Positions 3,687 to 26,895 of a stretch of DNA of 32,160 nt are shown one piece after another (the stretch's first letter is position 1; every line of letters begins with the position of its first letter). Source of the stretch: a virus; IMG/VR virus record IMGVR_UViG_3300031746_000104, positions 1-32,160 of that record; one strand, given 5' to 3'. The notes below the pieces were generated by a model. The model saw only the letters and a program-made list of their open reading frames with translations, searched no databases and had not been told where the DNA came from. The translations under genes were made by a program, and so were the position numbers.

Positions 3687-6593
3687 ATGGCCAATACAGC
3701 CGAGCTGGGCATCTATCTGCGCTGTAAGGATGATGCCTCAAAGGTTCTGGGCGATGTCCAGAAGAAGGCGGGCGGCCTCGGCAAAGCCTTCGGAGACATG
3801 GCCAAGATCGCCGGCGGCTTCGTGATGGCCCAGGGCATCATGGCGGCCCCCGGCTTCCTTATGGACGCGGCGCAGGCCGCCGCTAATGAGACAGCATCAC
3901 TTATGCGTCTTCAGAAGGCCGTCGAAAATAGTGGCGGGTCCTGGGATATCTACGGCAAGCAGCTTGATGCCGTCGTTGAGGCCGGGATGAAGAAGGGCTT
4001 TGACGATGACGCTCAGCGTGCTGCCCTATCCCTCTTGGTGGCCCAGACTGATAACGCGACCGAAGCCATCGGTCGGTTTGGGTTGGCCCAGGACGTTGCC
4101 CGTGGTGCCGGAATCGACCTAGAGACGGCTTCCCGTCTCTTGGGCAAGGTCACTGAGGAGAACGCCAACGTCTTCAAGCGAATGGGCATCAACTTAGCGG
4201 AAGGCGCAACGGCGGCTGAGGCGTTCGCGGCTTTGCAGCAGAAGTTCGGGGGGCAGGCTGACGCCTATGCCAAGTCAACCGCAGGACAGATGGAAGCCGC
4301 CAAGATTCAGATGGGTGAACTGAAGGAGACGATTGGCTATCTAGTTCTCCCCATCCTGACCACGCTGGTCGATGTCGTCACTAACCAGATCATCCCTGCC
4401 GTTGTCAAGTTCATCGACGCCTGGGGGCCGAAGTTAACAGCCGCATTCGATACGGCCAAGGCCGCTATCGAGCCCTTGATCGATACCCTCAAAGGACCCC
4501 TGCGAGAAGCCCTCAACTTCCTTGACGAGCACAGGGAGGCGATAGTCGGTGCCCTCGCCGCCATCGGAGTTGTGGTGCTCTACAACGTGGTGCCGGCCTT
4601 CATCGCCTGGGCCGCAGCCACCATCGCTGCGACGTGGCCCATCCTGGCCATTGTTGCCGCCGCTGCCCTGCTGGGCGCGGGCCTCGCTCTCCTTATCCGC
4701 AACTGGGACACGGTATGGCCCGCCCTTCAGAGGGCGCCAGCCGCGCTGCTCAACTGGTTCAAGGACAACTGGCAGCGAGCCCTCCTGGCCATCCTTGGCG
4801 GCCCACTGGCGATCATCGCTATGAACTGGGGCCGCATCTTCAACGCTATGCCAGCGCCTGTACGGGCTGCGATGAACGCCGTGGCCAGCATCATAGAAGT
4901 AACCGTCAACTGGATTCTGGATCGCCTCGCTGACTTGTTATCTGGCATCAACAATATCGCCAGCTTCGCCAACAAGCTGCTGGGCAACATCGGCCTAGAG
5001 ATACCTGACCTGAGCGGTGCGATAGCGGACATGCGCGCTGGCGTCTCACTCCAACTTGAGGTCGCGGTCAAGCCCGCTGTGGAAGGCGTAGCGGGTCTGA
5101 CGTTAGCGGCGAAGAACTTCAAGAAGAGCGCAGAGGAGGCCCGTCCGCCGCTGTTAGACTGGACGACCAGCCTTGGCGGGGCAGGCGCCGCCGCTGGTGG
5201 TGCCGCCGCCGCTGTTGAGAAACTCGCGGAGGTCGTTGACATCCTTGACGATGGCATCATCTCCCTCGCTGAGGCCACGGCCAACGGCATCCCCGCCTGG
5301 GCTGCCGCCCGATTCGAGGCTGCGGCGCTGGCGAAGACACTTGCTGACAAGGTTGCCGAGGATGCGTGGACAGCCCAGAAGGCTCTCGTCAACCTTTCCG
5401 ATGCGATGGGGGAGAACGGAGCCACGAAGGCCACCGTCGCCTTCTGGGCGGCGGCCAAGATCGCCAATGAGGGCACGCTCACCCTCAAGGATGCCCTGAA
5501 CCTGGGCCTCACACCAGCGCAGGCCACCACAATCCAGTCCCTCGCCGACGTGGTGAAGAAGCACCAGGAACTTCAGGATGCCATCTTCAAGGTTCAGATC
5601 GAGATGGCCACCTTCAACCTGCAACTGAAGGAACTGCCCGGCCCGATAGCCGATTCCGTGCGCGAACTCTATAACCTGGGAATCCGCCTGGGGAACACGG
5701 GGCTCGGGCGGCAGGCGCTCGACTTTGAACTGGCGATGCAGGCCGTTCAGTCCAGCTTCGGGAGCGCCAAGGCCGCTGCCTCCGAGTTCGCCTACCAGGT
5801 CGGCACTGAACTCGTGAGCCAACTGCAGGGCGCCCTCGGGAAGTTGCTCGGCGGGCCGACCGTAGAGACGGCACAACTGCAGCTTCAGATCGACACGCTG
5901 GAATATCAGAAGGCGGTCATACTGGCGGCGGGGGCCACGACCGAGCAGACGAAGGCCATCGATGAGCAGATCACGGCTCTTCAGAATCAACTAGCCGTCT
6001 ACACCGCCGACCACAGGATCATGCAGGATCGGGCGACGCTCAATGACGCGTCGCTGCCTACCGAGCGTGAGCTCAAGGATATGGCTGGCCAACTCACCGA
6101 GGCCATCAAGGCGCAATCCCAGAAGGTTCAGGACCTTAGCTGGGTGACCGACATTCAGAGACTAGCGACGGCGGGAGCTGCTAACGCGGCGGACAACATG
6201 GAGACAACCGTCCGGGGTGCCACTGATTATATCGGCTTCGCCTTCCGGGGCCTGGGCGACGCCGTGGGTGCCCAGACGACCATGACCTGGAACCTGAACA
6301 CGGCTGGCCAGAATGCGGCGAATGTATTGAATAGCCTGCATGTACCGCCGGGGTTTCAATCCGGCGTCCACAACTTCGGCGGCGGCCTAGCATGGGTCGG
6401 CGAGCGCGGCCCGGAACTCGTCTCCCTGCCCCGTGGCTCCAACGTCTACTCAGCGCAGGAGAGCCGGGGTCTGGGTGGCAACACCATCATCATCAATGGC
6501 GGGATCACCATCCCCGCGCGCGACCTTGCGGAGATGCGTACCGTGCAGGACTTCTTCGACCGCCTACAGCGTGTGGCGAGAGGGGGCGGGTAG
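3687..6593 (+). CDS. Tape measure protein
   Basis: At 968 residues this is the longest gene after the chaperones. ATG 3687 is preceded by GAGGAG. The N-terminus (ELGIYLRCKDDASKVLGDVQKKAGGLGKAFGD) is typical of TP901-like tape measures. A strongly hydrophobic stretch around residues 285-370 holds several possible membrane segments, and long Ala-rich helices follow. The C-terminus (GFQSGVHNFGGGLAWVGERGPELV, near residues 888-911) carries the GxxxFxGGxAxVGExGPE-like motif common to these proteins. It sets tail length and may help DNA cross the membrane. No peptidase or muramidase motif was seen. Confidence 0.95.
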   Translation: MANTAELGIYLRCKDDASKVLGDVQKKAGGLGKAFGDMAKIAGGFVMAQGIMAAPGFLMDAAQAAANETASLMRLQKAVENSGGSWDIYGKQLDAVVEAGMKKGFDDDAQRAALSLLVAQTDNATEAIGRFGLAQDVARGAGIDLETASRLLGKVTEENANVFKRMGINLAEGATAAEAFAALQQKFGGQADAYAKSTAGQMEAAKIQMGELKETIGYLVLPILTTLVDVVTNQIIPAVVKFIDAWGPKLTAAFDTAKAAIEPLIDTLKGPLREALNFLDEHREAIVGALAAIGVVVLYNVVPAFIAWAAATIAATWPILAIVAAAALLGAGLALLIRNWDTVWPALQRAPAALLNWFKDNWQRALLAILGGPLAIIAMNWGRIFNAMPAPVRAAMNAVASIIEVTVNWILDRLADLLSGINNIASFANKLLGNIGLEIPDLSGAIADMRAGVSLQLEVAVKPAVEGVAGLTLAAKNFKKSAEEARPPLLDWTTSLGGAGAAAGGAAAAVEKLAEVVDILDDGIISLAEATANGIPAWAAARFEAAALAKTLADKVAEDAWTAQKALVNLSDAMGENGATKATVAFWAAAKIANEGTLTLKDALNLGLTPAQATTIQSLADVVKKHQELQDAIFKVQIEMATFNLQLKELPGPIADSVRELYNLGIRLGNTGLGRQALDFELAMQAVQSSFGSAKAAASEFAYQVGTELVSQLQGALGKLLGGPTVETAQLQLQIDTLEYQKAVILAAGATTEQTKAIDEQITALQNQLAVYTADHRIMQDRATLNDASLPTERELKDMAGQLTEAIKAQSQKVQDLSWVTDIQRLATAGAANAADNMETTVRGATDYIGFAFRGLGDAVGAQTTMTWNLNTAGQNAANVLNSLHVPPGFQSGVHNFGGGLAWVGERGPELVSLPRGSNVYSAQESRGLGGNTIIINGGITIPARDLAEMRTVQDFFDRLQRVARGGG

Positions 6594-9600: not shown

Positions 9601-9839
9601 GGCTGAAGGCAGAGGAGTTCTTGGGGCTGGTGCAGCCGAAGGCGGCGCAGATCGTCTTCAAGCTGGGCACCATCCCCTCGGATTACGTGAGCGGCCGACC
9701 GACGATCCTGTTCGACGGCGAGGGCACGATTAGCACGCGCACCTATCCCTACCTAGACAGCTATACGCCGACGGTCAATGACAGGGTGCTAGTGGCGATG
9801 GTGGGGCATTCGGGCGTCGTGCTGGGGGATGTAGTCTAA
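9597..9839 (+). CDS. Small tail-tip protein, hypothetical
   Basis: The 80-residue product starts at ATGA 9597, overlapping the hub gene stop. The sequence GRPTILFDGEGTISTRTYPYLDSYTPTVNDRVLVAMVGHSGVVLG is a compact run of beta strands that looks like an OB-fold, as found in small proteins and tail-spike bases beside phage hubs. Function is inferred from context only. Its TAA overlaps the next ATG (TAATG), so the fused enzyme downstream is translated in the same operon. Confidence 0.65.
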   Translation: MRLKAEEFLGLVQPKAAQIVFKLGTIPSDYVSGRPTILFDGEGTISTRTYPYLDSYTPTVNDRVLVAMVGHSGVVLGDVV

Positions 9840-11467
9840 TGCGTATCCTTTTCGTCTCTGACGCCCCCTGGCAGGCCAGTGGCTACGGGCAACAGACAGA
9901 CATGGTGACGCGGGCGATGGTCGCTGACGGGCATGAGGTCTATGTCTATGCACCCGGCGCCCTTCATGAGGGTGAGGTGCCCCTTGCGGAAAACCTCACC
10001 GTGCTCTCCTCGGCCTACGGCGATGACCGATGGGGCAACATGAGCCTGCCTTGGCACATGGAGCGAGTGCAGCCCGATCTAGTCATCACCTGGCTCGACG
10101 CCCAGGGGCTTATCGGCTACGGGCGCGACCATGTGCCCTGCTACATGTGGGCGCCGATAGACAGCCAGCCAATCCCCATCATGGAGCGGGACGTGCTCCA
10201 GCGTGCGACGAAGATCCTCGTGCCCTCGCGGTGGGGGCAGGGAATACTGGCGGAACATGGCTTTGATAGTGAGTACGTGCCGTGCTGCATAGACCTCGCG
10301 GCGCTACGGATAGACCCCGGTGCCCGCCAGCGATGGCGTAAGCGAAACGGCGTTCAAGACGACGACTGGCTCATCGGCATGGTGGGCCAGAATCGTGGTA
10401 GCCCAGATCGCAAAGGATACGCCTGGGCCTTCGATATCCTGAAGGAGTTCATGGGGCGACACGCCGACGTGAAGGCATACCTTCACACGGAACCCGTAGG
10501 CGACCAGTATGCGCCGAACCTCACCTATCTGCGGATGGAGTTGGGCCTACTTGGCCGCATCGACTTTCCCAGACAGACCGGCTCCTACGCCTGGGCCGGC
10601 CCGTGGATGGCCGAGATGTATAACGCCTTTGACGTGCTGCTTCATTGCTCGCTGGGCGAGGGATTCGGCGTGCCCATCCTAGAGGCTCAGGCGTGCGGTA
10701 CGCCCGTTGTCGTCAATGCGGCGACGGCGGTTACGGAGTTGAGCGCCAACGGCTACCAGGCGCAGCCATCGCAATGGATTTGGAGCACTACGATAACAAA
10801 GTGGGCGCTGCCCGACGTGAGTAACCTTCTGGAGCAGCTCGAACGGGCCTACGCCGCCCGGGGCGACTTGAACCGCGAGGCCGTGAGGGAATTCACGCTA
10901 CCCTACGGCGCCCGCCGTGTCTATGAGGATTGCTGGCGCCCCGTCCTGGCAGCGGTGGCTCCGCCTCTCGACTACAAGGCCGGCGAGCGGAAGCTCCTCC
11001 TTGGCGCCGGAAGGGTGAGGAAGGCAGGCTATACCCACCACGACAGGGACGGCCTCTACCCGGACATCGACGTGGCCCACGACCTCACCGTGTTCCCCTG
11101 GCCGTGGGCCGATTCCTCCTGGGATTACGTCGAGGCGGTGGATGTCCTCGAGCACCTCGCCTGCGACTTCACGCTCGTCATGGATGAACTCTGGCGCATC
11201 ACGGCCCCGGGCGGCTATCTCATGGTTCATGGCCCCGAAGTCGGCTCCTGGCAGCACACGGCAGACCCGACGCATGTTCGGGGCTTCACGCTTGATTCAT
11301 TCGACTACTGGACCGAAAGGGGGTGGGGCAAGACATACCCTTACACGACTCACAAGTGGGAAACGATAAGAAAGTTGCGGGATGAGAGCGGGATCACCGT
11401 CGTTCTGAGGCCGCTCAAGCCCGTGGCGAAGGAGAAACAATGGCTGGAAACATCAGCGACTACCTAG
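9839..11467 (+). CDS. Bifunctional glycosyltransferase (GT4-like) - methyltransferase fusion
   Basis: The 542-residue protein begins MRILFVSDAPW, followed by GYGQQTDMVTRAM, the N-terminal pattern of GT-B glycosyltransferases. Around residues 268-290 it has HCSLGEGFGVPILEAQACG, with the EGFGxPxLEA signature (E-x7-E type) of GT4 enzymes that bind the nucleotide sugar. From about residue 380 a second domain resembles class I SAM methyltransferases: LLLGAGR, then D-rich AHDLTVFPWPWADSSWD, and VDVLEHL near 431. It would glycosylate, and perhaps O-methylate, a surface or phage-protein glycan. It starts by TAATG overlap and its end overlaps the next gene by 28 bases, so it is embedded in the tail operon. 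The acceptor is unknown. Confidence 0.85.
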   Translation: MRILFVSDAPWQASGYGQQTDMVTRAMVADGHEVYVYAPGALHEGEVPLAENLTVLSSAYGDDRWGNMSLPWHMERVQPDLVITWLDAQGLIGYGRDHVPCYMWAPIDSQPIPIMERDVLQRATKILVPSRWGQGILAEHGFDSEYVPCCIDLAALRIDPGARQRWRKRNGVQDDDWLIGMVGQNRGSPDRKGYAWAFDILKEFMGRHADVKAYLHTEPVGDQYAPNLTYLRMELGLLGRIDFPRQTGSYAWAGPWMAEMYNAFDVLLHCSLGEGFGVPILEAQACGTPVVVNAATAVTELSANGYQAQPSQWIWSTTITKWALPDVSNLLEQLERAYAARGDLNREAVREFTLPYGARRVYEDCWRPVLAAVAPPLDYKAGERKLLLGAGRVRKAGYTHHDRDGLYPDIDVAHDLTVFPWPWADSSWDYVEAVDVLEHLACDFTLVMDELWRITAPGGYLMVHGPEVGSWQHTADPTHVRGFTLDSFDYWTERGWGKTYPYTTHKWETIRKLRDESGITVVLRPLKPVAKEKQWLETSATT

Positions 11468-11853
11468 AGAACAAGGTCCTGGATCACACCCTGGCAAAGA
11501 CGGACTTTGATAAGCCGGCGGCCTGCTACGTGGGCCTATTCACCGGCAGCCCCGCCGACGACTACAGCGGCAGCGCCAGTGAGGTGGCAACCGGAACCAC
11601 CACATCCTATGCCCGCAAGAGCGCGACCTTCAGCGCCGCCGCCGGTGGTAGCACCACGAACAGCGCCGATGTGCTCTTTGACGAGGCAACGGCTAGCTGG
11701 GGCAACCTCACCCACGCGGCTCTGTTCACCAGCTCGGACGGCTCCGGCAGTGCCAACATGCTGTGGCACGGCTCGCTCGCAGCCAACAAGTCCATCGCCT
11801 CGGGCGACCAGTTCAAGATCAAGGCGGGTGACCTAGACGTTAGTCTCGACTAG
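11440..11853 (+). CDS. Phage tail-fibre-associated beta protein
   Basis: A 137-residue protein with ATG 11440 inside the end of the fusion gene and a good GAAGGAGA upstream. The pattern (ISDYLENKVLDHTLAK, then CYVGLFTGSP, ARKSATFSAA, LTHAALFTSS, ANMLWHGSLAANKSI, then FKIKAGDLDVSLD) is that of a common small phage protein family usually annotated as tail fibre or hypothetical and found in fibre regions. It is a compact beta-sandwich-like sequence. No enzymatic residues were identified. It is probably a fibre or decoration subunit. Confidence 0.65.
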   Translation: MAGNISDYLENKVLDHTLAKTDFDKPAACYVGLFTGSPADDYSGSASEVATGTTTSYARKSATFSAAAGGSTTNSADVLFDEATASWGNLTHAALFTSSDGSGSANMLWHGSLAANKSIASGDQFKIKAGDLDVSLD

Positions 11854-12357: not shown

Positions 12358-15300
12358 ATGTCTCAGACGGTTGCGATCACCAACTTCACCTATGTTGATG
12401 AAGCCTACCCCACCAGCAAGTTCGGCTCTACCGCGGTGGGCATATTTGGACGCTCGCCCACCAAGGCGCCGAAAAAGAAGCGCCTCCTCCTTAGTGTTGA
12501 TGTCTCGGCCTACTATGGCCGAACCGTCCTGATAGGAACAAGACTCCGCCTCTATGTGAACGCCTACACTGGGGCGGCTTATACAGCAAGGGTGTACCGT
12601 CTTTACCAAGGGTGTACCGAGGCCACCGTCACATGGGATACCCAAGAGGCGGAGCAGGGTAGCCCCAGCCCGCACACATTCACCACGCCCACCGCGACGG
12701 GCTGGCTGACAATTAGCGGGGCGAACTTTCAAGCTCTCGTCCAGTATGCCCTCGATAACAGTATAACGCTGAACTTGGGCATCCGCAGCAACGCCGAAAC
12801 GGAGACAGCCCAGGACACCTCGGTTGACTCCGACGATGGCACCAATCCACCTGAACTCGTCCTATGTCTGGTCGAAGAGGGCTCACTCGCCCTCGCGGGC
12901 AACGGCACTCTCACGCCCACCGCCATCAAGACCCCGCGCCAGTTCCTCATGCGCTACTTCGGCCCCGCAGCCGCCCCAGCCAAGATACAGGTCAACGACC
13001 TCACCGAACTCATGCGGGCGGGCACGCCGGGGAAGACAACGTATTCCCTCGGGGACGGGCTCAACAACTGCCACGGGGGGGCCTACGACCCTGTAACGGG
13101 CAAGGCGTTCCTTGTCCTCCGCATGAGCCTGACCTCTCCTATAACTTCCTACCGCCTGATACGGCTTGACCCCACGGATGGCACCTATGACACCTACACG
13201 GCACCGGCTGGCGACAACTACGGCGAGGCGTGCTGCGTGGCGGGCGACTACGTCTATGTGGTGCATGGGGAGGCCATCGAAAACCCCAACATCCTCCTGG
13301 ATAGGTTCGACGCCGATGAGGCTACGCTAGGCGCCACCCGAACGCAGTACACCTACAATATCGCTGCCTACACAACCGGACAGGACGCCGACCGCAGCGT
13401 GGCCGATGCGGCAGGCAACACCCGACGCTCTCAGTCGTTCCAGGTTGCGGTCGCCCAGGAGGTCAGGTCGGCCCAACTCTATCTCAAGAAGGGCGGTTCG
13501 GGCACCGTTCCGTCTGACTGGATTGCGGAGATTCGGACGGACGACGGATCGGGCAAGCCCTCCGCCACCATCCTAGGAACAAGCGTAGCCAGGCAGGGCA
13601 TGACTGGGGCTAGCTATACCTGGGTCGGTTTCTGGTTCACTATCCCCGTCTCGCTGTCCGCCGATACGACCTACCACCTCGTCTTACGGCGGCAACTGGA
13701 TGCTACCGGCACCACATATCAGGTTTGGGGAGTGGACACATCAACCGGCTATGCGCTAGGAAAGCACGGCGTCTATGGCGGAGCAAACTGGACGGTCTCG
13801 GATAGTGAGGACGCGCTGTTCGGCCTGGGGCCTCAGCGGGGGAACAGCATAAGCACAGACGGGACTTATCTCTACATCGGCACCCGTGACTCGCATGTAG
13901 CCGTTGTCCGCATCAGCGACATGACCCTCCGGGCCGTGAAGTCTCTTACCGGTATTCAGGGGATCGTCCACTGCATCCGCTACAGCCACGCCAGCGGCAA
14001 CGACCGCATCTTCTACTGTACGAAAGCCGAGGGGACAGTCTTCAAGCTGACCTACAACGTGAGCACGGACGCCCTCACTGAGAACGCCTACCAGGATTCA
14101 GGTCAAACGCTGACGGATGACTTCGCCGTCACCGCCGACTATCTCTACCTGGGGTATGAGGGTAGTCCGACCTGGAATGGTTACATCTGCAAGATGGCGA
14201 AGTCTGACCTAAGCATCGTCGACCGCATCCTAGTACACGAGTCCCTTGAAAACCCCCAAAGCTACGGTGTGTTTGAGACACCCGACGGCGACTATGTCTG
14301 GACGGTCTGGAACTTCACCGAGTTGGGGATGGCCCGGATCAAGGTTTCGGACAGTAGCATTCAGCGTGTCTGGTTCGACCGCGCCAACGATGAGATCAAC
14401 ACGAATGAGGTCATCTTCTGCGGCTCGGAGGACCTCGCCCTCATAACCTGCTGGCTTACGACGCCCCTTCCGGTCATCAAACTGACAGACCTCTTTGCCC
14501 AGGAGACCATCGAGGCAGGTAGCGGCGACGCCTACTCCTACTGGTGGCCCCTGAAGGTCTACGTTGAGGAGCCGCCCGATGAGGACATGGGCACCTTCGC
14601 CGCCTTCACAGACGGCGTGAATGGCCTGGGCACGGGTGTTAGCCTCGTCGGCAACGTGGCCACGGGCTACACCGAGCCCACGGGAACCCCAGGCGAGTCG
14701 GGTGATGTGCTCAACCCTACGAACTATCCGTCCCTGGCCGGCGCTGTCGCTGACGCCTTCGACTGGACGAGCGGGAGCCCGAAGGCGATCTCCGGTACCC
14801 TCGCCAAACAGGCCAGTTATCGGGCCTCAGACACTTCAACCGCCGACGCTGCCACCACGCTGACTCTGGATAAGCCCGCCGGCCTAGCCGTGGGGGACGC
14901 GCTCGCGGCCTTCGTCGCTGCCCGCAGCGCGGCTGGCGCCGGAGCCATCACGCCGCCCGCTGGCTGGACGGAAGCCGCCCAACTTGCCTCTAACGATGCC
15001 AAGATGTACGGGGCCATCTTCACGAAGGAAGCCGACGCAGACGATGTAGCGGCTGCCACCTTCGACTTCACAACCGTTGCCGCCCATTATTGGAGCGGTG
15101 CGCTGTGGGCCTGCAAGGATGCGGACCCTATCTATTCCGTCGCCAGCATAGGGATCACCGCTACGGGCACCTCCCACCTCTCGCCCACGGACGTAGCGAC
15201 CGCAAGCAAGCGCGAGCTTGTCTTCTACTGCTACGCGGTGGACGTCAGCGCAACGTGGGGTACAATCGCCGGGCTCACTGAGCGGGCTGCCGTAGAGAGT

Positions 15301-17592
15301 CACGCGCCGAGCCTCCTCGTGGCTGACGCGCAACTGGAGACTGAGAGCGGGCCGACTCAGAAGGAGGGCGTTTCCAGTTCAGCGGGTTACGGCATAACCG
15401 CCTACATTACCTTCCGCCGCAAGCGCGTCATCGACAACTTCCTGGTCCTCCAGATGGTCGTCGCTGATACCGCCGCCGAGGGTGCGACGCCGGACGAAAG
15501 CCTGAGCCTATACGGCACACTATCCTCGATGAAGCCTGCCCGCTCGGTCAGTCTCTACGGCGACATCGTGCTGGGGTTCGTCACGGGGGCGCTCTCCCTT
15601 TCCGGCTCAGGCACACTGAGTCCCGCGTCAACCCGAATACGTACCGCCATCGCACAGTTCGCCGGTTCCGGCACGCTGGCTCCTACGGGCGGGGCCAAAC
15701 GTTCAACATCCGTAGCCCTCGCCGGGGCGGGCACGTTAGCAATACAGCCTAAACCCGTCCTAGGAACCAGCACGTTGATGACGGCGCAGAGCGCCCTTGC
15801 CATTACCCCCGCCGCCATCCGTTCAGTCGCCGCCGACCTGAGCGGTTCGGGCGTGACCGCGATAGTGCCAAGGGTGGTCAGGGCGAACACTGTTGACCTG
15901 GCCGGCAGCGGCACGCTGGAGGCCGTAGGCCAGCGTACCCGGATGGGTGCCGTTGCGCTTGCGGCGGAGGGGACTTTAGCGCCCACCGGTCTCCGCACCC
16001 GTTGCGGCATCGCCGCTTTCGCAGGTAACAGTACCCTCGTTTGCACGCCGCATTATCTAGCGGGCGGGCTTCTGACCCTCTCCTCCACCGGCACGATTGT
16101 CATTGCTAGTTCGGTATCCGCTATCATCGAAGCCATCCTTTCGATGAACGCTTCAGGCGGCCTAGCAGTCGTCGGTCGCGCTCTTCGCCCGGGTATCTTT
16201 GGCCTTTCGGGTGATGGTAGCCTCAGCCCGACAGGCGTTCGCATGAGAATAGCCAGCCTGGGGCTCTCTGGAGATGGGGCGCTATCCCTTCAGGGTGTCA
16301 GAGTAGCCTATGGCATTGTGGCCCTCTCGGGCCAGGGAACCCTTGCCGTGATGCCCCGATACTTAGGGCGCGGGGCGGTAGCCCTCTCTAGTTCTGGTTC
16401 CATTGTAATCACCGCCTCCGTCGGCGCTATCATCGAAGCCATCCTCTCTCTGGGCGCTTCGGGTTCTCTCGTTACGCTTGGCCGGGCGCTACGATCTGCT
16501 GCCGTCGCCCTCACCGGGGACGGTACTCTGTCACCAGCCGGTCAGCGCCTCCGATTAGGGGCTGCTGCGCTATCGGGGACAGGGACCCTCTCGCCCAGTG
16601 CTGTCCGTCAACGCCTCGCTGCAGCCACCTTATCAGGCGCTGGCACTCTCGCCGTCGTCCCGCATTACCTAGCAGGTGGGGCAATAGTCCTTTCTGGGGC
16701 TGGCTCCCTTGTAACCATCGGTAGCATCGGCTCGATTATCGAGGCCATACTTTCTCTCAGCGGTTCGGGTTCCCTGGCCGTGGCAGGGCGGGCTCTCCTA
16801 GCGGACTCCATCGCCCTGGCGGGCAACGGCACCCTGGCACCAGACGGGCGGCGTATCCGGCTAGGGGCAACCGCGCTCTCTGGGGAGGGCATCCTTGCCG
16901 CCACGGGCATGAGGATGAGGGCGGGTTCGCTCGGCCTGTCGGGTCAAAGTAGCCTAGCGGTTCTTGGGCGGCGACTGGTAAGCGGAACCATCAGCCTGAG
17001 CGGCCTGGGCGATCTCGATGTCGCAGCCTACATGGGCGGCGTACTAGAGGGAACGGTTGCCTTAACCGCCGAGGGCCTCCTAGTCGTCACGGGAACACTG
17101 ATCCGGGCTGCTAGCGTTTCCCTCTCAGGTAATGGGCACCTAGAGCCTACGGGCCTCCGCATCACTACGGGCGGCGTGGCCCTTTCGGGCAACGGCTCCC
17201 TTGACGTGGGCGGGATTCGCCTTCGAATGAGCAGCATCGCCCTATCAGGCAACGGTGTTCTAGCAGTAGCGGGGCGACGGCTGGCGCTCGGCTCTATATC
17301 CCTGGCAGCGAACGGCAATCTAGCCATTGCCGCCGCCGCCCTCTTCGGCGGCTCTGCGGTGCTAACCGCTGAGGGGCTTCTTATGCCCATCGGCACCGCC
17401 CTCGAGATCGGGGCGGTCAATCTGTCCGCCTCCGGCACGATGCTCATCATCGGCACCAGCGGGCAAATCATCGCCGCCATCTCCCTTCAGGGTGAGGCGG
17501 CTCCCAATATCGTGCTGGTCGGCCAATCTCTGCCTGCGCTCACGCTGGCTGGCACCAAGACAGATCAGGTATTGGAGGGAGAGGTCTCATGA
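12358..17592 (+). CDS. Giant tail-fibre / adhesin with nested C-terminal repeats
   Basis: A 1744-residue protein. Residues 1-170 resemble a DNRLRE-type beta domain (VDVSAYYGRTVLIGTRLRLYV, with a TVTWDT turn). About 220-720 looks like a beta-propeller (repeating YxY/Lxxx...DxxxxR strands) interrupted near 350-450 by a jelly-roll-like insert (FQVAVAQEVRSAQLYLKKGG ... TYHLVLRRQ). About 800-1050 is another beta domain (TLTLDKPAGLAVGDALAAFVA). From about residue 1076 to 1730 it is a continuous repeat of roughly 20 residues with consensus LSGxGTLxPxGxRxR, grouped into 102-residue blocks. No transmembrane segment was seen. It is most likely the receptor-binding fibre, with the repeats as an extended shaft; the distal end carries no evident enzyme. 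Confidence 0.8.
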   Translation: MSQTVAITNFTYVDEAYPTSKFGSTAVGIFGRSPTKAPKKKRLLLSVDVSAYYGRTVLIGTRLRLYVNAYTGAAYTARVYRLYQGCTEATVTWDTQEAEQGSPSPHTFTTPTATGWLTISGANFQALVQYALDNSITLNLGIRSNAETETAQDTSVDSDDGTNPPELVLCLVEEGSLALAGNGTLTPTAIKTPRQFLMRYFGPAAAPAKIQVNDLTELMRAGTPGKTTYSLGDGLNNCHGGAYDPVTGKAFLVLRMSLTSPITSYRLIRLDPTDGTYDTYTAPAGDNYGEACCVAGDYVYVVHGEAIENPNILLDRFDADEATLGATRTQYTYNIAAYTTGQDADRSVADAAGNTRRSQSFQVAVAQEVRSAQLYLKKGGSGTVPSDWIAEIRTDDGSGKPSATILGTSVARQGMTGASYTWVGFWFTIPVSLSADTTYHLVLRRQLDATGTTYQVWGVDTSTGYALGKHGVYGGANWTVSDSEDALFGLGPQRGNSISTDGTYLYIGTRDSHVAVVRISDMTLRAVKSLTGIQGIVHCIRYSHASGNDRIFYCTKAEGTVFKLTYNVSTDALTENAYQDSGQTLTDDFAVTADYLYLGYEGSPTWNGYICKMAKSDLSIVDRILVHESLENPQSYGVFETPDGDYVWTVWNFTELGMARIKVSDSSIQRVWFDRANDEINTNEVIFCGSEDLALITCWLTTPLPVIKLTDLFAQETIEAGSGDAYSYWWPLKVYVEEPPDEDMGTFAAFTDGVNGLGTGVSLVGNVATGYTEPTGTPGESGDVLNPTNYPSLAGAVADAFDWTSGSPKAISGTLAKQASYRASDTSTADAATTLTLDKPAGLAVGDALAAFVAARSAAGAGAITPPAGWTEAAQLASNDAKMYGAIFTKEADADDVAAATFDFTTVAAHYWSGALWACKDADPIYSVASIGITATGTSHLSPTDVATASKRELVFYCYAVDVSATWGTIAGLTERAAVESHAPSLLVADAQLETESGPTQKEGVSSSAGYGITAYITFRRKRVIDNFLVLQMVVADTAAEGATPDESLSLYGTLSSMKPARSVSLYGDIVLGFVTGALSLSGSGTLSPASTRIRTAIAQFAGSGTLAPTGGAKRSTSVALAGAGTLAIQPKPVLGTSTLMTAQSALAITPAAIRSVAADLSGSGVTAIVPRVVRANTVDLAGSGTLEAVGQRTRMGAVALAAEGTLAPTGLRTRCGIAAFAGNSTLVCTPHYLAGGLLTLSSTGTIVIASSVSAIIEAILSMNASGGLAVVGRALRPGIFGLSGDGSLSPTGVRMRIASLGLSGDGALSLQGVRVAYGIVALSGQGTLAVMPRYLGRGAVALSSSGSIVITASVGAIIEAILSLGASGSLVTLGRALRSAAVALTGDGTLSPAGQRLRLGAAALSGTGTLSPSAVRQRLAAATLSGAGTLAVVPHYLAGGAIVLSGAGSLVTIGSIGSIIEAILSLSGSGSLAVAGRALLADSIALAGNGTLAPDGRRIRLGATALSGEGILAATGMRMRAGSLGLSGQSSLAVLGRRLVSGTISLSGLGDLDVAAYMGGVLEGTVALTAEGLLVVTGTLIRAASVSLSGNGHLEPTGLRITTGGVALSGNGSLDVGGIRLRMSSIALSGNGVLAVAGRRLALGSISLAANGNLAIAAAALFGGSAVLTAEGLLMPIGTALEIGAVNLSASGTMLIIGTSGQIIAAISLQGEAAPNIVLVGQSLPALTLAGTKTDQVLEGEVS
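15748..17271 (+). repeat. Tandem 300-306 bp coding repeats inside the fibre gene
   Basis: Blocks begin at 15748 (300 bp), 16048, 16354, 16660 and 16966. The last four are each exactly 306 bp (102 residues). Each starts with a P(H/K/R)YLxxG- or GRRLxxG-like segment. Three (16048, 16354, 16660) contain an IIEAILS motif about 25 residues in, followed by three to four copies of the LSGxGTL unit. A partial block continues to about 17490. DNA copies are diverged, so the repeat is old and probably selected for protein shape. Confidence 0.85.
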
Positions 17593-20752: not shown

Positions 20753-21607
20753 CTAGAGGCGGTCGGCCAAATTGAACCGCCGCTGCTGGTCAAGGGCGCG
20801 GGTAGCGGCACTGTAGGCCGCATACTCCGCCGCCTGCTTCAAGGTCTCGTGGCCCAGGATGATCCGCAGAGCGTCCAGGTCTCGGCTCTCCTCTAGGAAG
20901 CGGATCGCAAATGTGACCCTGAACCCATGAGGGTGAATCCGCCCAAGGTGAGCCTCCCGAGCCCGCCGGTTGACCATCGCCTCTATCGCCGCTATCCCGA
21001 TCTCCCACACTGCGCCCACCTGCCCATTCACGTACTCGCGTAGCGATACCATGACCGCTTCACCCGGCGCGATCCATCTTTCCTTTGCCCCCTTGCCGTG
21101 GAGAAGGATGCAACCGCCCTCCCAATCGATGTCTACCGTTTTCATCCCGGCCAGCTCACTCAGGCGCAAGCCACCACCGATGAAGAGGAGGAGCATGGCC
21201 CGATCCCGCAGGGCACGCGGCGGGTCATTCTCGGTTGCGGCCAGGAGAGCCCGCAACTCTTGGGGGCTGTAGGGCCGGTGGGGTTGATGGCGAACGGGCC
21301 GCAGTTTCAGCCCGGTCGTGGGATCATCGTGCCGGCGACGGCTGGCTATGAGCCAGCGGTAGAAGGAGCGGAGGGTGCAGATCGACTGCTGGGCCGTGGC
21401 GGGAGCCCGGTCTTGGAAGCGGCTGGCAATCCAGCGGTGGACTTGCACGCGGTTGGCCTTCGGCGCCGTGGTGTGTTGACCCAGGCACCAGCGTTCAAAG
21501 AGGTCGAGCGTGATGGGGTAACGGCGGCAGGTGTTCGGGCTGTAGCCCCTGGCTACGAGGGCAAGGCGGTACGCGTCCCTGCTTTCCGCCCACGTGCGGG
21601 CGGGCAT
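20753..21607 (-). CDS. int: Tyrosine recombinase / phage integrase
   Basis: The 284-residue leftward gene has a SAM-like N-terminal DNA-binding domain (residues 5-90, ARGYSPNTCRRYPITLDLFERW) and a complete catalytic domain. Visible residues are Arg148 (GGLRLSEL), Lys175 (GKGAKERWI), His227 and Arg230 (HPHGFRVTFA), His253 (LGHETL) and the nucleophile Tyr262, nine residues after His253 as is usual. It is XerC/D-sized with no arm-binding extension evident. It would integrate and excise the phage at an attachment site I could not identify. Its start overlaps the repressor gene end by 55 bases and lacks a clear ribosome site, suggesting coupled translation. Adjacent AT-rich sequence at 20640-20750 is the likeliest place for attP. 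Confidence 0.95.
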   Translation of the reverse strand: MPARTWAESRDAYRLALVARGYSPNTCRRYPITLDLFERWCLGQHTTAPKANRVQVHRWIASRFQDRAPATAQQSICTLRSFYRWLIASRRRHDDPTTGLKLRPVRHQPHRPYSPQELRALLAATENDPPRALRDRAMLLLFIGGGLRLSELAGMKTVDIDWEGGCILLHGKGAKERWIAPGEAVMVSLREYVNGQVGAVWEIGIAAIEAMVNRRAREAHLGRIHPHGFRVTFAIRFLEESRDLDALRIILGHETLKQAAEYAAYSAATRALDQQRRFNLADRL

Positions 21608-22018: not shown

Positions 22019-22387
22019 ATGACGGACCCCGCCAGCCCGCTCATATTTCCTGCCCCCTCCCGTTCAGAGAAAGGGAATAAAATCCTCAATGAAAATTGGC
22101 GATCTGTCGCTGGTTTTGAGGGGCTTTATGAGATTTCAGATCAAGGGCGGGTTCGACGCATCGCCAAAGGCCGAGGTTATGGGGGCTATCCTGGTCGGAT
22201 CATCCGCCCCCGTATTGGCCTGTACTATGTAGTCCAACTCCGGCGAGAGTGCCAAAGGTTCGGCCTAACCGTCCATAGCATAGTAGCGACGGCGTTCCAC
22301 GGAGCCCGGCCTCCGGGCCGGGAAGTCAACCACCTCGACGGTAACAATCACCGGCTCCGCTGGGCGGTGAATGGAGCGACCCAATGA
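22019..22387 (+). CDS. NUMOD4 / HNH homing-endonuclease-like protein, shortened
   Basis: The 122-residue product is read from ATG 22019 (GAAAGG upstream); the frame extends further 5' but would start inside the promoter. Residues 24-49 (NENWRSVAGFEGLYEISDQGRVRRI) are a clear NUMOD4 DNA-binding motif. Residues 86-109 (VHSIVATAFHG ... REVNHLDGN) are the first half of an HNH nuclease, with His105 and the N/D/G/N residues. The stretch that normally follows (about seven residues with the second Asn) is missing: DGN runs straight to NHRLRWA. The stop codon is made by the first bases of the 103-bp repeat at 22383. It may be a decaying or altered homing nuclease. Confidence 0.75.
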   Translation: MTDPASPLIFPAPSRSEKGNKILNENWRSVAGFEGLYEISDQGRVRRIAKGRGYGGYPGRIIRPRIGLYYVVQLRRECQRFGLTVHSIVATAFHGARPPGREVNHLDGNNHRLRWAVNGATQ

Positions 22388-22485
22388 CGCTCCCGCACGA
22401 CCTCGAAATCCTAAACGACGTTGGCACAGACCAGGGCTACAAACTCACGGTTCACTGTCGCCAGTGTGGTCGCCAGAAAACCCTC
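22383..22485 (+). repeat. 103-bp exact direct repeat, copy 1
   Basis: Identical at every base to 23408-23510, starting AATGACGCTCCCGC and ending AAAACCCTC. Copies start 1025 bp apart. Copy 1 supplies the stop of the HNH-like gene and, in another frame, an ATG with 34 codons fused in front of the HTH protein. Confidence 0.95.
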
Positions 22486-23250
22486 CGCGCGGTGGGACGG
22501 CGAGGCGAGGGAGTGCGCCTCATGAGGAGTCGCTGGAAGTGGAGCGCAGAAGACCTGCTGCAGCTGGAGGAGTTGCTCGTCCGCGGCTGGAGCGACCACA
22601 AGATCGGCGAGGCCCTGGGCTGTACCGCCGTGGCTGTCCAGGTCATCAGGAAGCGCAAGCGCATACCGCCGCGTCAGCGGTTGCTCCTCTCGGCTCGCGC
22701 CGTAGCCAGAAAGCTCGGCGTGCGGTGCAGCAAGACCGTGACCTGGTGGATCAAGGCCGGATACCTGAAGGGCAGGCGGGGGCAGGGAGCGGGACCGCAC
22801 AGGATGTGGTACGTGACGGAGGAGGCGCTCCTGCGCTTCCTGGAAGACGCACGCTACTGGCACCTGTGGGATCCGACCAAGATCGGGGCGGACCTCAAGC
22901 CCTGGGTGCGGGAGATCCGCAACGGGATAGCCTTCCTCACGACGGGCCAGGTCGCCACCCAGCTGCACGTCGGCCATTCCGCAGTCAACGCTTGGATTCA
23001 TCGGGGCCTATTGCCCGCCGTTCGGCGCGGCAACTGGCTCGTGAGGGATTGCGACCTGCGCGGCTTTGTGCCCCCCTGCGAGCGGAGCAGGAAGGGAAAG
23101 AGGCCCAGGCGCTTCTCTCCGCAGGAGGACGTGCAGCTCCTCTCGCTGAGGACAGAGGGCAAGTCTCTGGTGGAGATAGCGGGCTGCTTGTCCCGGCCTC
23201 TTGGCTCGTGCGCCGGACGTCTGGCGCGGTTGGGGGCAAGGGCAGGATGA
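22384..23250 (+). CDS. Protein with four HTH-like segments (regulator)
   Basis: The frame from ATG 22384 (ATGA overlap with the HNH-like stop) gives 288 residues. The first 34 are encoded by repeat copy 1, so the ancestral start is probably ATG 22522, which has GAGGCGAGGGA upstream and gives 242 residues. Numbering from 22522, residues 6-45 are Myb/SANT-like (KWSAEDLLQLEELLVRGWSDHKIGEALG), about 55-110 is an excisionase/MerR-like winged HTH (SARAVARKLGV ... WIKAGYLKGRR ... WYVTEEALLRFL), about 140-185 is a second (TTGQVATQLHV ... WIHRGLLPAVRRGNW), and 195-240 is again Myb-like (FSPQEDVQLLSLRTEGKSLVEIAG). It is a likely DNA-binding early regulator or recombination directionality factor. Its stop overlaps the next ATG (ATGA). 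Confidence 0.75.
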   Translation: MTLPHDLEILNDVGTDQGYKLTVHCRQCGRQKTLRAVGRRGEGVRLMRSRWKWSAEDLLQLEELLVRGWSDHKIGEALGCTAVAVQVIRKRKRIPPRQRLLLSARAVARKLGVRCSKTVTWWIKAGYLKGRRGQGAGPHRMWYVTEEALLRFLEDARYWHLWDPTKIGADLKPWVREIRNGIAFLTTGQVATQLHVGHSAVNAWIHRGLLPAVRRGNWLVRDCDLRGFVPPCERSRKGKRPRRFSPQEDVQLLSLRTEGKSLVEIAGCLSRPLGSCAGRLARLGARAG

Positions 23251-23594
23251 AGCAACCTACCTGCTTCAACAGCCTCATGTACTGGTTTCCCAAGGTAGAG
23301 GAACTGGGGATTCCGCAGCCGCGCACTGAGATCGTATGGCTGGGCTGGGAGAGGATGTGCGGCTTGCTGGACGGCAAAGCCCTGCCAAGGAAGATGACAG
23401 AGCAAATAATGACGCTCCCGCACGACCTCGAAATCCTAAACGACGTTGGCACAGACCAGGGCTACAAACTCACGGTTCACTGTCGCCAGTGTGGTCGCCA
23501 GAAAACCCTCTACACCCTTCACGGCGGCCTTGTCGGTCTGGACGAGTGTGCCCGCCGCTGGTCTGGCTGCACAGGGCAAGAGAGGTTGCTATGA
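23247..23594 (+). CDS. Zinc-ribbon-like protein carrying the intact form of the repeat
   Basis: The 115-residue product starts at ATG 23247 in an ATGA overlap. The N-terminal part (YWFPKVEELGIPQPRTEIVWL) is a pattern seen in phage early proteins of unknown function. Residues 55-88 are encoded by repeat copy 2 and include HCRQCGRQ. Together with Cys101 and Cys108 these make a possible four-Cys zinc site (79, 82, 101, 108). The same N-terminal segment in copy 1 lacks the second Cys pair. This gene is therefore the parent of the duplicated segment. Function is unknown. Confidence 0.65.
   Translation: MKQPTCFNSLMYWFPKVEELGIPQPRTEIVWLGWERMCGLLDGKALPRKMTEQIMTLPHDLEILNDVGTDQGYKLTVHCRQCGRQKTLYTLHGGLVGLDECARRWSGCTGQERLL
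23408..23510 (+). repeat. 103-bp exact direct repeat, copy 2
   Basis: The second copy of the repeat at 22383-22485, lying inside the intact zinc-ribbon-like gene. Recombination between copies would delete the four-HTH gene and join the HNH-like gene to the C-terminal half of this gene. Confidence 0.95.
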
Positions 23595-24244: not shown

Positions 24245-25273
24245 ATGGAGACTCTGACCCGGCCCCACAACTACTTGATCCGTTCGAGCCAACCCGACGG
24301 CGGCGAGTACCGCGTCCAGGTTCTCCAAGGGCGCGCTGTCTGCCATTGCCCCGGCTGGACGCGCTACGGCCAGTGTCGGCATGAAAGAGAGGCACTAAGG
24401 ATGAACGAGCAGCAAGAACAGGAGCAGACGCGGGCGCTGGTGCCCATCGAGGTCAGCCCACCCGTGGCCGTGCTACCAACGCAGCCGGAGATAAGCATCA
24501 TGGGGACGCTGGCGAAGAGCGTAGTGCTCGCTCGCGGCCATGCCGTCCCTGCCACCGTCGACTCGCCGGCCAAAGCGTTTGCGATCATGCTCGCGGGCTG
24601 GGAGGTCGGCGCCAAGCCCATGACGGCCCTGCGTCACATGTTCGTGGTGAACGGGCGGACGGAGCCCGACGCCCAACTCATGATGGGCATCGTCAAGGCC
24701 CGCGACCCGTCGGCGCGGTTCGTTTTTCACGCCCGCACCGACGACCTCTGCGACATGGAGCTTTTCAGGGGCGGGCGGCCTGTCGTGCGCCTCGCCTATA
24801 CAGCCGCGGACGCGGAGCGGGCGGGCCTGCTAAAGAAGGGCGGCCCGTGGGCGCAGTACCGGAAGGACATGATGGCGTGGGCGGCGATCAAGCGCGTGTG
24901 CCGCCTTGGAGCGCCGGATCTCATCAACGCGATCTCCGGCGTCGATGTCGGCGAGGCCAGCGAGATGATGGACGACCTGCCGGATGAGGGCGGTCCCGTG
25001 ATCGATGTCGAGGCGGTGCCGGCGGCGGAGCTGGTGAACGAGGGAGACGAGGCCGAGGCGGAAGGAGAGCCCGAAGCCGACGCCGAGCCTGAGCCCGCCG
25101 GCGAGGAGCCGATGCCCAAGCTCCGCAACCTGGGCGACCTCTACAAGCAGGCGCACGAGCTCCTGGGATACCCCAACAAGGCAGCCGTGCTCAAGGACCT
25201 GGGCTGCGCGGAGACGGACATCGCCGACCTGCCGGCCGCGTGGGGCAAGCTGGTGGCGAAGGCGCGAGCGTGA
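24245..25273 (+). CDS. recT: SWIM zinc finger - RecT-like annealing protein fusion
   Basis: A 342-residue protein. Residues 22-50 contain CHC-(x8)-CRH (Cys33, Cys35, Cys44, His46), a SWIM-type zinc finger (CxC...CxH). From about residue 80 it matches phage RecT-like single-strand annealing proteins: AFAIMLAGWEVGAKPMTALRHMFVVNGR, then TEPDAQLMMGIVKA, then YTAADAERAGLLKKGGPWAQYRKDMMAWAAIKRVCRLGAPDLI. An acidic linker (about 255-290) leads to a short helical C-terminal domain (LGDLYKQAHELLGYPNKAAVLKDLG). Annealing proteins pair single strands during phage recombination and replication. Met53 could start a shorter RecT alone, but no stop separates the two parts. VRR-NUC and replication genes follow. 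Confidence 0.8.
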   Translation: METLTRPHNYLIRSSQPDGGEYRVQVLQGRAVCHCPGWTRYGQCRHEREALRMNEQQEQEQTRALVPIEVSPPVAVLPTQPEISIMGTLAKSVVLARGHAVPATVDSPAKAFAIMLAGWEVGAKPMTALRHMFVVNGRTEPDAQLMMGIVKARDPSARFVFHARTDDLCDMELFRGGRPVVRLAYTAADAERAGLLKKGGPWAQYRKDMMAWAAIKRVCRLGAPDLINAISGVDVGEASEMMDDLPDEGGPVIDVEAVPAAELVNEGDEAEAEGEPEADAEPEPAGEEPMPKLRNLGDLYKQAHELLGYPNKAAVLKDLGCAETDIADLPAAWGKLVAKARA

Positions 25274-26085: not shown

Positions 26086-26895
26086 ATGGCTAAGTGGCGC
26101 TGTCTCTGGGCCTCGATAAGTCTCTCGCGACGGCTGGGGGGCTGCTCCACGCTGGCCGCCCTCGCCTATACCTGGGGCATCGCCCACGGGGATGCCTACG
26201 GCCTCATGCGGCGCGATGACGTGCGGCTGAAAGTGCTTGGACGACGCCGGGTGAGCCCGGCCAGCCTTGAACGCGCCATCGACGAGCTCATTGCCCTCGG
26301 CCTGCTGTGCCAGCCGCGGTACAACGATGACGCTTGGCTCCATTGGTGCGGGTGGGATGCCTACCAGGGCGAGCAGGTCCGCAAGCGCACCGTCGCGCCC
26401 CGCTTCAACCTTATCTGTACGAATGAAAAGCGCGGAAATTTCCGCGCTGTGGCGGAAAAAAGCGCAAAGACAAAGACAAAGACAAAGACAAAGACAAAGA
26501 CAAAGACAAAGACAGCAGCCCCCCCTACCCCCCCAAACGGGCCGCCGTCGTCCGAGGAAAAGACCCTAGGTCGGTTGATGGAGGCGGTAGTCGCCATCTG
26601 GCCCGGGGCCGGCGCCGTCTTCTATCAGGGCTACACCGACCTAGAGGACGAGTACGGCATTGACTTCATCTGGGAGTGCTGGAAGGCGGCGCTGGAGTCG
26701 GGGCAGACGAAGGCGAGTGTCCGCTACCTTGAGGCGATAGCTCGACGCTGCAAGGCCGAAGGCAAGAAGCCGGGGCAGAAGGAGGATCTACATGGCGAGA
26801 ATCGGCGGGATGCGCAAGCTGGCCGAGGTCCTGGTGGGAGTCCGGGAGAGTCCGCCCGACGGCTCGTCGAGCAGCGAGAGCGAATGTGGGCCTGA
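26086..26895 (+). CDS. Replication initiator-like protein with (Lys-Thr)8 linker
   Basis: The 269-residue product is read from ATG 26086. Residues 15-105 (STLAALAYTWGIAHGDAYGLMRRDDVRLKVLG ... ERAIDELIALGLLCQPRYNDDAWLHWCGW) look like the winged-helix DNA-binding domain of phage replisome organisers. A linker at about 127-142 is eight Lys-Thr pairs encoded by an AAAGAC repeat. The C-terminal region (LMEAVVAIWPGAGAVFYQGYTDLEDEYGIDFIWECWKAAL) is helical, similar in place to DnaD-like domains. A DnaC-like loader follows, the usual pair for recruiting helicase to the phage origin. The last 104 bases overlap the loader in another frame. Confidence 0.7.
   Translation: MAKWRCLWASISLSRRLGGCSTLAALAYTWGIAHGDAYGLMRRDDVRLKVLGRRRVSPASLERAIDELIALGLLCQPRYNDDAWLHWCGWDAYQGEQVRKRTVAPRFNLICTNEKRGNFRAVAEKSAKTKTKTKTKTKTKTKTAAPPTPPNGPPSSEEKTLGRLMEAVVAIWPGAGAVFYQGYTDLEDEYGIDFIWECWKAALESGQTKASVRYLEAIARRCKAEGKKPGQKEDLHGENRRDAQAGRGPGGSPGESARRLVEQRERMWA
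26466..26513 (+). repeat. Hexanucleotide microsatellite (AAAGAC) x 8
   Basis: Eight uninterrupted units over 48 bp, all coding for Lys-Thr in the initiator-like gene. Loss or gain of whole units keeps the frame and changes linker length. Confidence 0.95.

Follow-up and report, generated by a model that had tools for sequence, protein, structure and literature searches.

The window analysed here, a whole virus record of 32,160 bp classed as linear, carries an exact 103-bp direct repeat. On balance, the repeat is best read as a passive scar of recombination within the early operon of a temperate phage, left by a tandem duplication and a deletion or by a template switch, with a RecT-like protein and replication as the probable agents. 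Comparison of the flanking sequences leads us to judge copy 1, which seemingly lies between two broken genes, as the derived copy, and copy 2, the 5' half of a small gene, ZR, as the original. The relevant features, all on the + strand, are as follows.

22021 to 22387 (start approximate), +: NUMOD4/HNH_3 endonuclease gene with a short C-terminus, its stop codon within copy 1
22383 to 22485, +: copy 1 of the repeat, a truncated 5' fragment (34 codons) of ZR, identical to copy 2, with a right flank that is not ZR; judged derived
22486 to 22521, +: probable tail of gene U (last 12 codons), carrying the Shine-Dalgarno sequence of the HTH gene; end-anchored match to the U tail of record L005
22522 to 23250, +: HTH gene, encoding a xis/MerR-like DNA-binding protein, with its natural start at M47 of the long ORF 22384-23250
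23247 to 23407, +: MKQP coding segment, 54 codons, in frame with ZR; relatives not found
23394 to 23594, +: intact ZR gene, starting at 23394 by alignment with record L003, or else at 23247 as a fusion that includes the 49 codons upstream
23408 to 23510, +: copy 2 of the repeat, inside the intact ZR gene, with L003 homology spanning 23417-23582; judged original
24245 to 25273, +: RecT-like single-strand annealing protein gene (phrog_561, E 4e-10; phrog_4171, E 4e-6), 0.7 kb downstream

The two copies agree at 103 of 103 bases and start 1025 bp apart, as the first-pass annotation had reported. The ends of the repeat are sharp, and the flanks outside it share no extended similarity. Its length is far above chance: the longest exact repeat in 50 dinucleotide-preserving shuffles of the window measured 14-18 bp, and once copy 1 is removed the next longest in the window itself is 44 bp, probably the CAAAGA hexamer array near 26.46-26.51 kb. 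These hexamers run head to tail at 26453-26512 inside ORF 26086-26895, where they encode a KTKTKT run and form a possible slippage-prone tract. The 103-bp sequence occurs only twice in the record; it is plain coding sequence, the first 34 codons of ZR, and its single-strand fold is not unusual. The absence of any difference across 103 bp bounds divergence below ~2.9% at 95%. Set against the 13-30% divergence from the closest relatives compared, the duplication event is probably recent, unless gene conversion keeps the copies alike, and the earlier proposal of a recent duplication is right as a general reading.

ZR is a small, CxxC-containing, zinc-ribbon-like protein (motif HCRQCGRQ) that matches DUF2688 weakly, below the family's cut-off. 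A predicted structural model, which reaches moderate confidence for the ZR part only, shows three strands and one helix (beta-beta-beta-helix); copy 1 holds the strands without the helix and is therefore unable to make the whole ZR fold. L003, another IMG/VR record whose lysis module is 87% identical to that of the window, matches window positions 23417-23582 at 84%. This homology reaches 72 bp past the repeat at copy 2, which bears out the earlier claim that this copy is internal to an intact gene. The complete ZR of L003 aligns gap-free to the ATG at 23394, a start that precedes the repeat by 14 nt, and the two sequences have ATGACA in common. The alignment weakly suggests that native ZR extends leftwards past the repeat at copy 2 only. 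ZR had no relatives in GTDB contigs, and its phage matches were weak and unconvincing. For the MKQP segment immediately upstream, family searches and an IMG/VR pattern scan were both empty, leaving it with no detectable relatives. Its assignment as an ATP-grasp N-terminus was a guess without support, since an approximate generic-motif query, like the family searches, gave nothing.

The surroundings of copy 1 are of a different kind. On its left, the HNH frame is closed by a TGA that overlaps the copy 1 ATG (22384-22387). Five relatives, namely one from L005 and four HNH proteins of phages (a near-identical pair among them), extend 50-69 residues beyond the C-terminus of the encoded protein, in whose HNH motif a short gap is seen as well. 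The truncation of the HNH frame by copy 1 had been noted before and is upheld by this comparison; the gene is probably a truncated remnant. On its right, copy 1 runs in frame through 12 codons into the HTH gene. These 36 bp resemble the end of gene U of L005 (protein shuffle p ~0.0003; DNA 20/36, p 0.004), and comparison with the U genes of L004 and L006 gave no support, so that the match is seen in one of three relatives. U is a conserved small gene directly upstream of the HTH gene in L004, L005 and L006, where it overlaps the HTH start as ATGA; L004 and L005 have it in complete form.

The HTH gene itself is 77% identical to its counterpart in L004 and 70% to that in L005. Relatives in L004, L005 and L006 begin at the equivalent of M47 and have no flanking repeat of this kind. 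In the window, M47 (22522) is preceded by a good Shine-Dalgarno-like GGGAG; a GGAG stands at a good distance from the ATG of copy 1 as well. Because the HTH gene retains its own start and Shine-Dalgarno sequence, the 46-residue N-terminal extension is probably incidental, including the half metal site presumed to lie within it; the long ORF probably starts at 22522. Copy 1 had been said to donate an ATG and 34 codons to this gene: the in-frame extension of 34 codons, ATG included, is present, but it does not supply the gene's own start, as relatives begin at M47. The description of the product as a four-HTH protein is roughly right. Pfam/PHROG matches fall at residues 50-96, 102-152, 184-221 and 242-271, several of them weak, and the predicted model places helical units in all four regions with modest confidence; for the long form, confidence is low to moderate over residues 1-50. 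Excisionase-like matches were obtained (phrog_66, phrog_2907), and the fold search returned local matches to BldC-type domains only (best E 0.06). No relatives were found in GenBank phages, plasmids or GTDB genome contigs.

In L004 and L005, the HTH gene is placed elsewhere, behind homologues of the window's 28.0-30.2 kb region. Comparison of L006:1169-1245 with L004:5901-8500 reveals that in L006 a deletion of ~2.1 kb relative to L004 interrupts the HTH gene after codon 73, with ~74 bp of unexplained sequence at the joint whose source was not found among the records compared. The neighbourhood of the HTH gene is thus rearranged in more than one phage. L004 also has a tRNA-Met (CAT) gene (5041-5115) immediately before its U-HTH gene pair.

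Taken together, these flanks point to copy 1 as the site of the new joints. Its right joint is derived because ZR continues normally at copy 2 only, and the truncation of the HNH gene at the left joint makes a derived origin probable for that one as well. A scar is also supported by the resemblance of the post-junction 36 bp to the L005 U tail, the ZR start 14 nt outside the repeat, the repeat-free HTH relatives and the nearby RecT-like gene. The pattern is that of a partial duplication: a sharp exact repeat with one copy native and the other fused to unrelated sequence, and genes truncated on both sides of the derived copy, the U side as judged from one of three relatives. In the proposed sequence of events, tandem duplication of a 1025-bp unit (22486-23510) would have joined ZR codon 34 to the tail of gene U; a subsequent deletion, running from the HNH gene to the start of the first repeat copy, would have taken with it the HNH end, the front of U and most of the first unit. 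Alternatively, one replication template switch may have produced both joints, and this mechanism, named in the first-pass annotation, is still live. The probable agents would be the phage's own RecT-like annealing protein and replication, the former a plausible but unproven candidate. Apart from giving the HTH protein an N-terminal extension that it can do without, the scar would be functionless.

In phage T4, microhomologies of 6-10 bp readily give rise to tandem segmental duplications, accompanied by large deletions at other sites (PMC9391042). The T4 tifA amplification resembles the window in that recombination made direct repeats in a phage genome that could later expand or collapse; unlike the window, where only 103 bp are still duplicated and the boundaries are unreadable, it amplified a whole gene unit under selection, with 6-10 bp microhomology boundaries (PMC9391042). 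The mosaic joints made by Rad52-like/RecT proteins in temperate phages offer a second parallel, given a temperate-type phage, a RecT-like protein and modules common to other phages in different order; those joints formed in diverged homology between two genomes, whereas the window's joints cut genes and leave an exact repeat (PMC3945230). Against a scar of this origin, two joints are required, and De Paepe et al. contend that in temperate phages illegitimate joints are rare relative to homology-driven ones (PMC3945230). The U-tail homology, moreover, rests on 12-14 codons and one of three relatives, and the HNH-ATGA-ZR layout that the left flank of copy 1 creates matches L003.

This last point fits a different history, insertion with target duplication, which is a serious if less probable contender; we give it about half the weight of the duplication or template-switch reading, and both are ordinary rearrangements. 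Here the ancestor would have carried HNH-ATGA-ZR, and a 922-bp segment (22486-23407), consisting of the U tail, the HTH gene and the MKQP head, would have entered ZR and duplicated 103 bp at its flanks. Illegitimate recombination, recombination driven by an annealing protein, or integration of a circle bearing one repeat copy could each account for its entry. L003 has such an arrangement, with one ZR copy directly behind an HNH gene (ATGA overlap) and no HTH gene or anything else between. Joining the window's flanks restores an intact ZR ORF, both segment ends resemble broken genes, the HTH gene has another location in L004 and L005, and the GGAG before the copy 1 ATG is well spaced. However, L003 and the window carry different kinds of HNH gene, which leaves common ancestry of the layout unproven; the window HNH is truncated exactly at copy 1, and the L003 ZR start aligns with a codon that lies outside the repeat in copy 2. 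Direct repeats flank the segment as they would in a target-site duplication, but it contains no transposase and lacks terminal inverted repeats. Transposon target duplications are usually much shorter than 103 bp.

An assembly artefact, in which the repeat served to link sequences from two or more strain variants or from a collapsed tandem array, is improbable yet deserves some weight. The sequence comes from a single metagenomic record, and neither junction has an independent copy. On the other hand, open reading frames are kept across both junctions, and k-mers of up to 127 were used in at least one JGI metagenome assembly, which may not be this record's pipeline (PMC10604447). K-mers of 127, being longer than 103 bp, would separate the two copies.

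A functional role, with the repeats as recombination sites for excising the HTH regulator or as the termini of a small element of the mobile or homing type, is very unlikely. Three features invite the idea: the excisionase-like matches of the HTH gene, a 103-bp identity that permits recombination, and a tyrosine integrase (20753-21607) within 1 kb of the HNH gene, the sole recombinase noted. The 922-bp segment, however, contains no recombinase (no transposase or integrase was found in it), no reverse transcriptase and no intact endonuclease, and the neighbouring HNH gene is itself cut short, which leaves the homing half of the earlier proposal of a homing or template-switch scar unsupported. 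Its ends at 22486 and 23407 have no paired terminal inverted repeats of at least 10 nt, the repeat is ordinary coding DNA that lacks any special fold, and HTH relatives have no flanking repeats of this kind. The suggestion of a reversible deletion of the regulator finds no support either, as the repeat is not associated with any recombinase, att-like or inverted-repeat structure. If the two copies recombined, 1025 bp would be lost and an intact ZR frame would remain, a one-way change with no evident route back. As to the comparison of relatives with and without copy 1 that was proposed as a check, the HTH relatives in L004, L005 and L006 have no repeat, and neither a variant without the copies nor one with re-joined copies, the recombining isoform, was found in IMG/VR or GTDB genome contigs. 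A diversity-generating retroelement was considered and rejected, as the record has no RVT_1 (control genomes were positive) and the copies are identical, with no adenine-specific differences. That the phage population moves, through its own annealing protein, between an HTH form with an extra half-zinc-ribbon N-terminus and a 1025-bp-shorter form in which an intact ZR gene comes directly after HNH, so that recombination drives loss or amplification of the regulator, is equally unlikely.

The repeat thus looks like an ordinary scar of phage genome shuffling; neither a mobile element nor a genetic switch is indicated. Its significance is mainly one of annotation, in that the HTH gene probably starts at 22522 and the HNH gene is probably a remnant; the locus also provides a small, clean example of phage early operons broken and re-joined. 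Were short and long forms to coexist in a population, the locus would illustrate how a regulator can be lost through repeats in nature.

Elsewhere in the window, an ARAGORN tRNA-Asn call (11635-11721, - strand) lies antisense in the structural-region ORF 11440-11853 and is probably false. A 542-aa tail-region ORF (9839-11467) appears, as judged by eye, to combine a glycosyltransferase-like part followed by a methyltransferase-like part. Further downstream, the second half of a 1744-aa ORF (12358-17592) is rich in degenerate repeats of the ALSGxGTL type.
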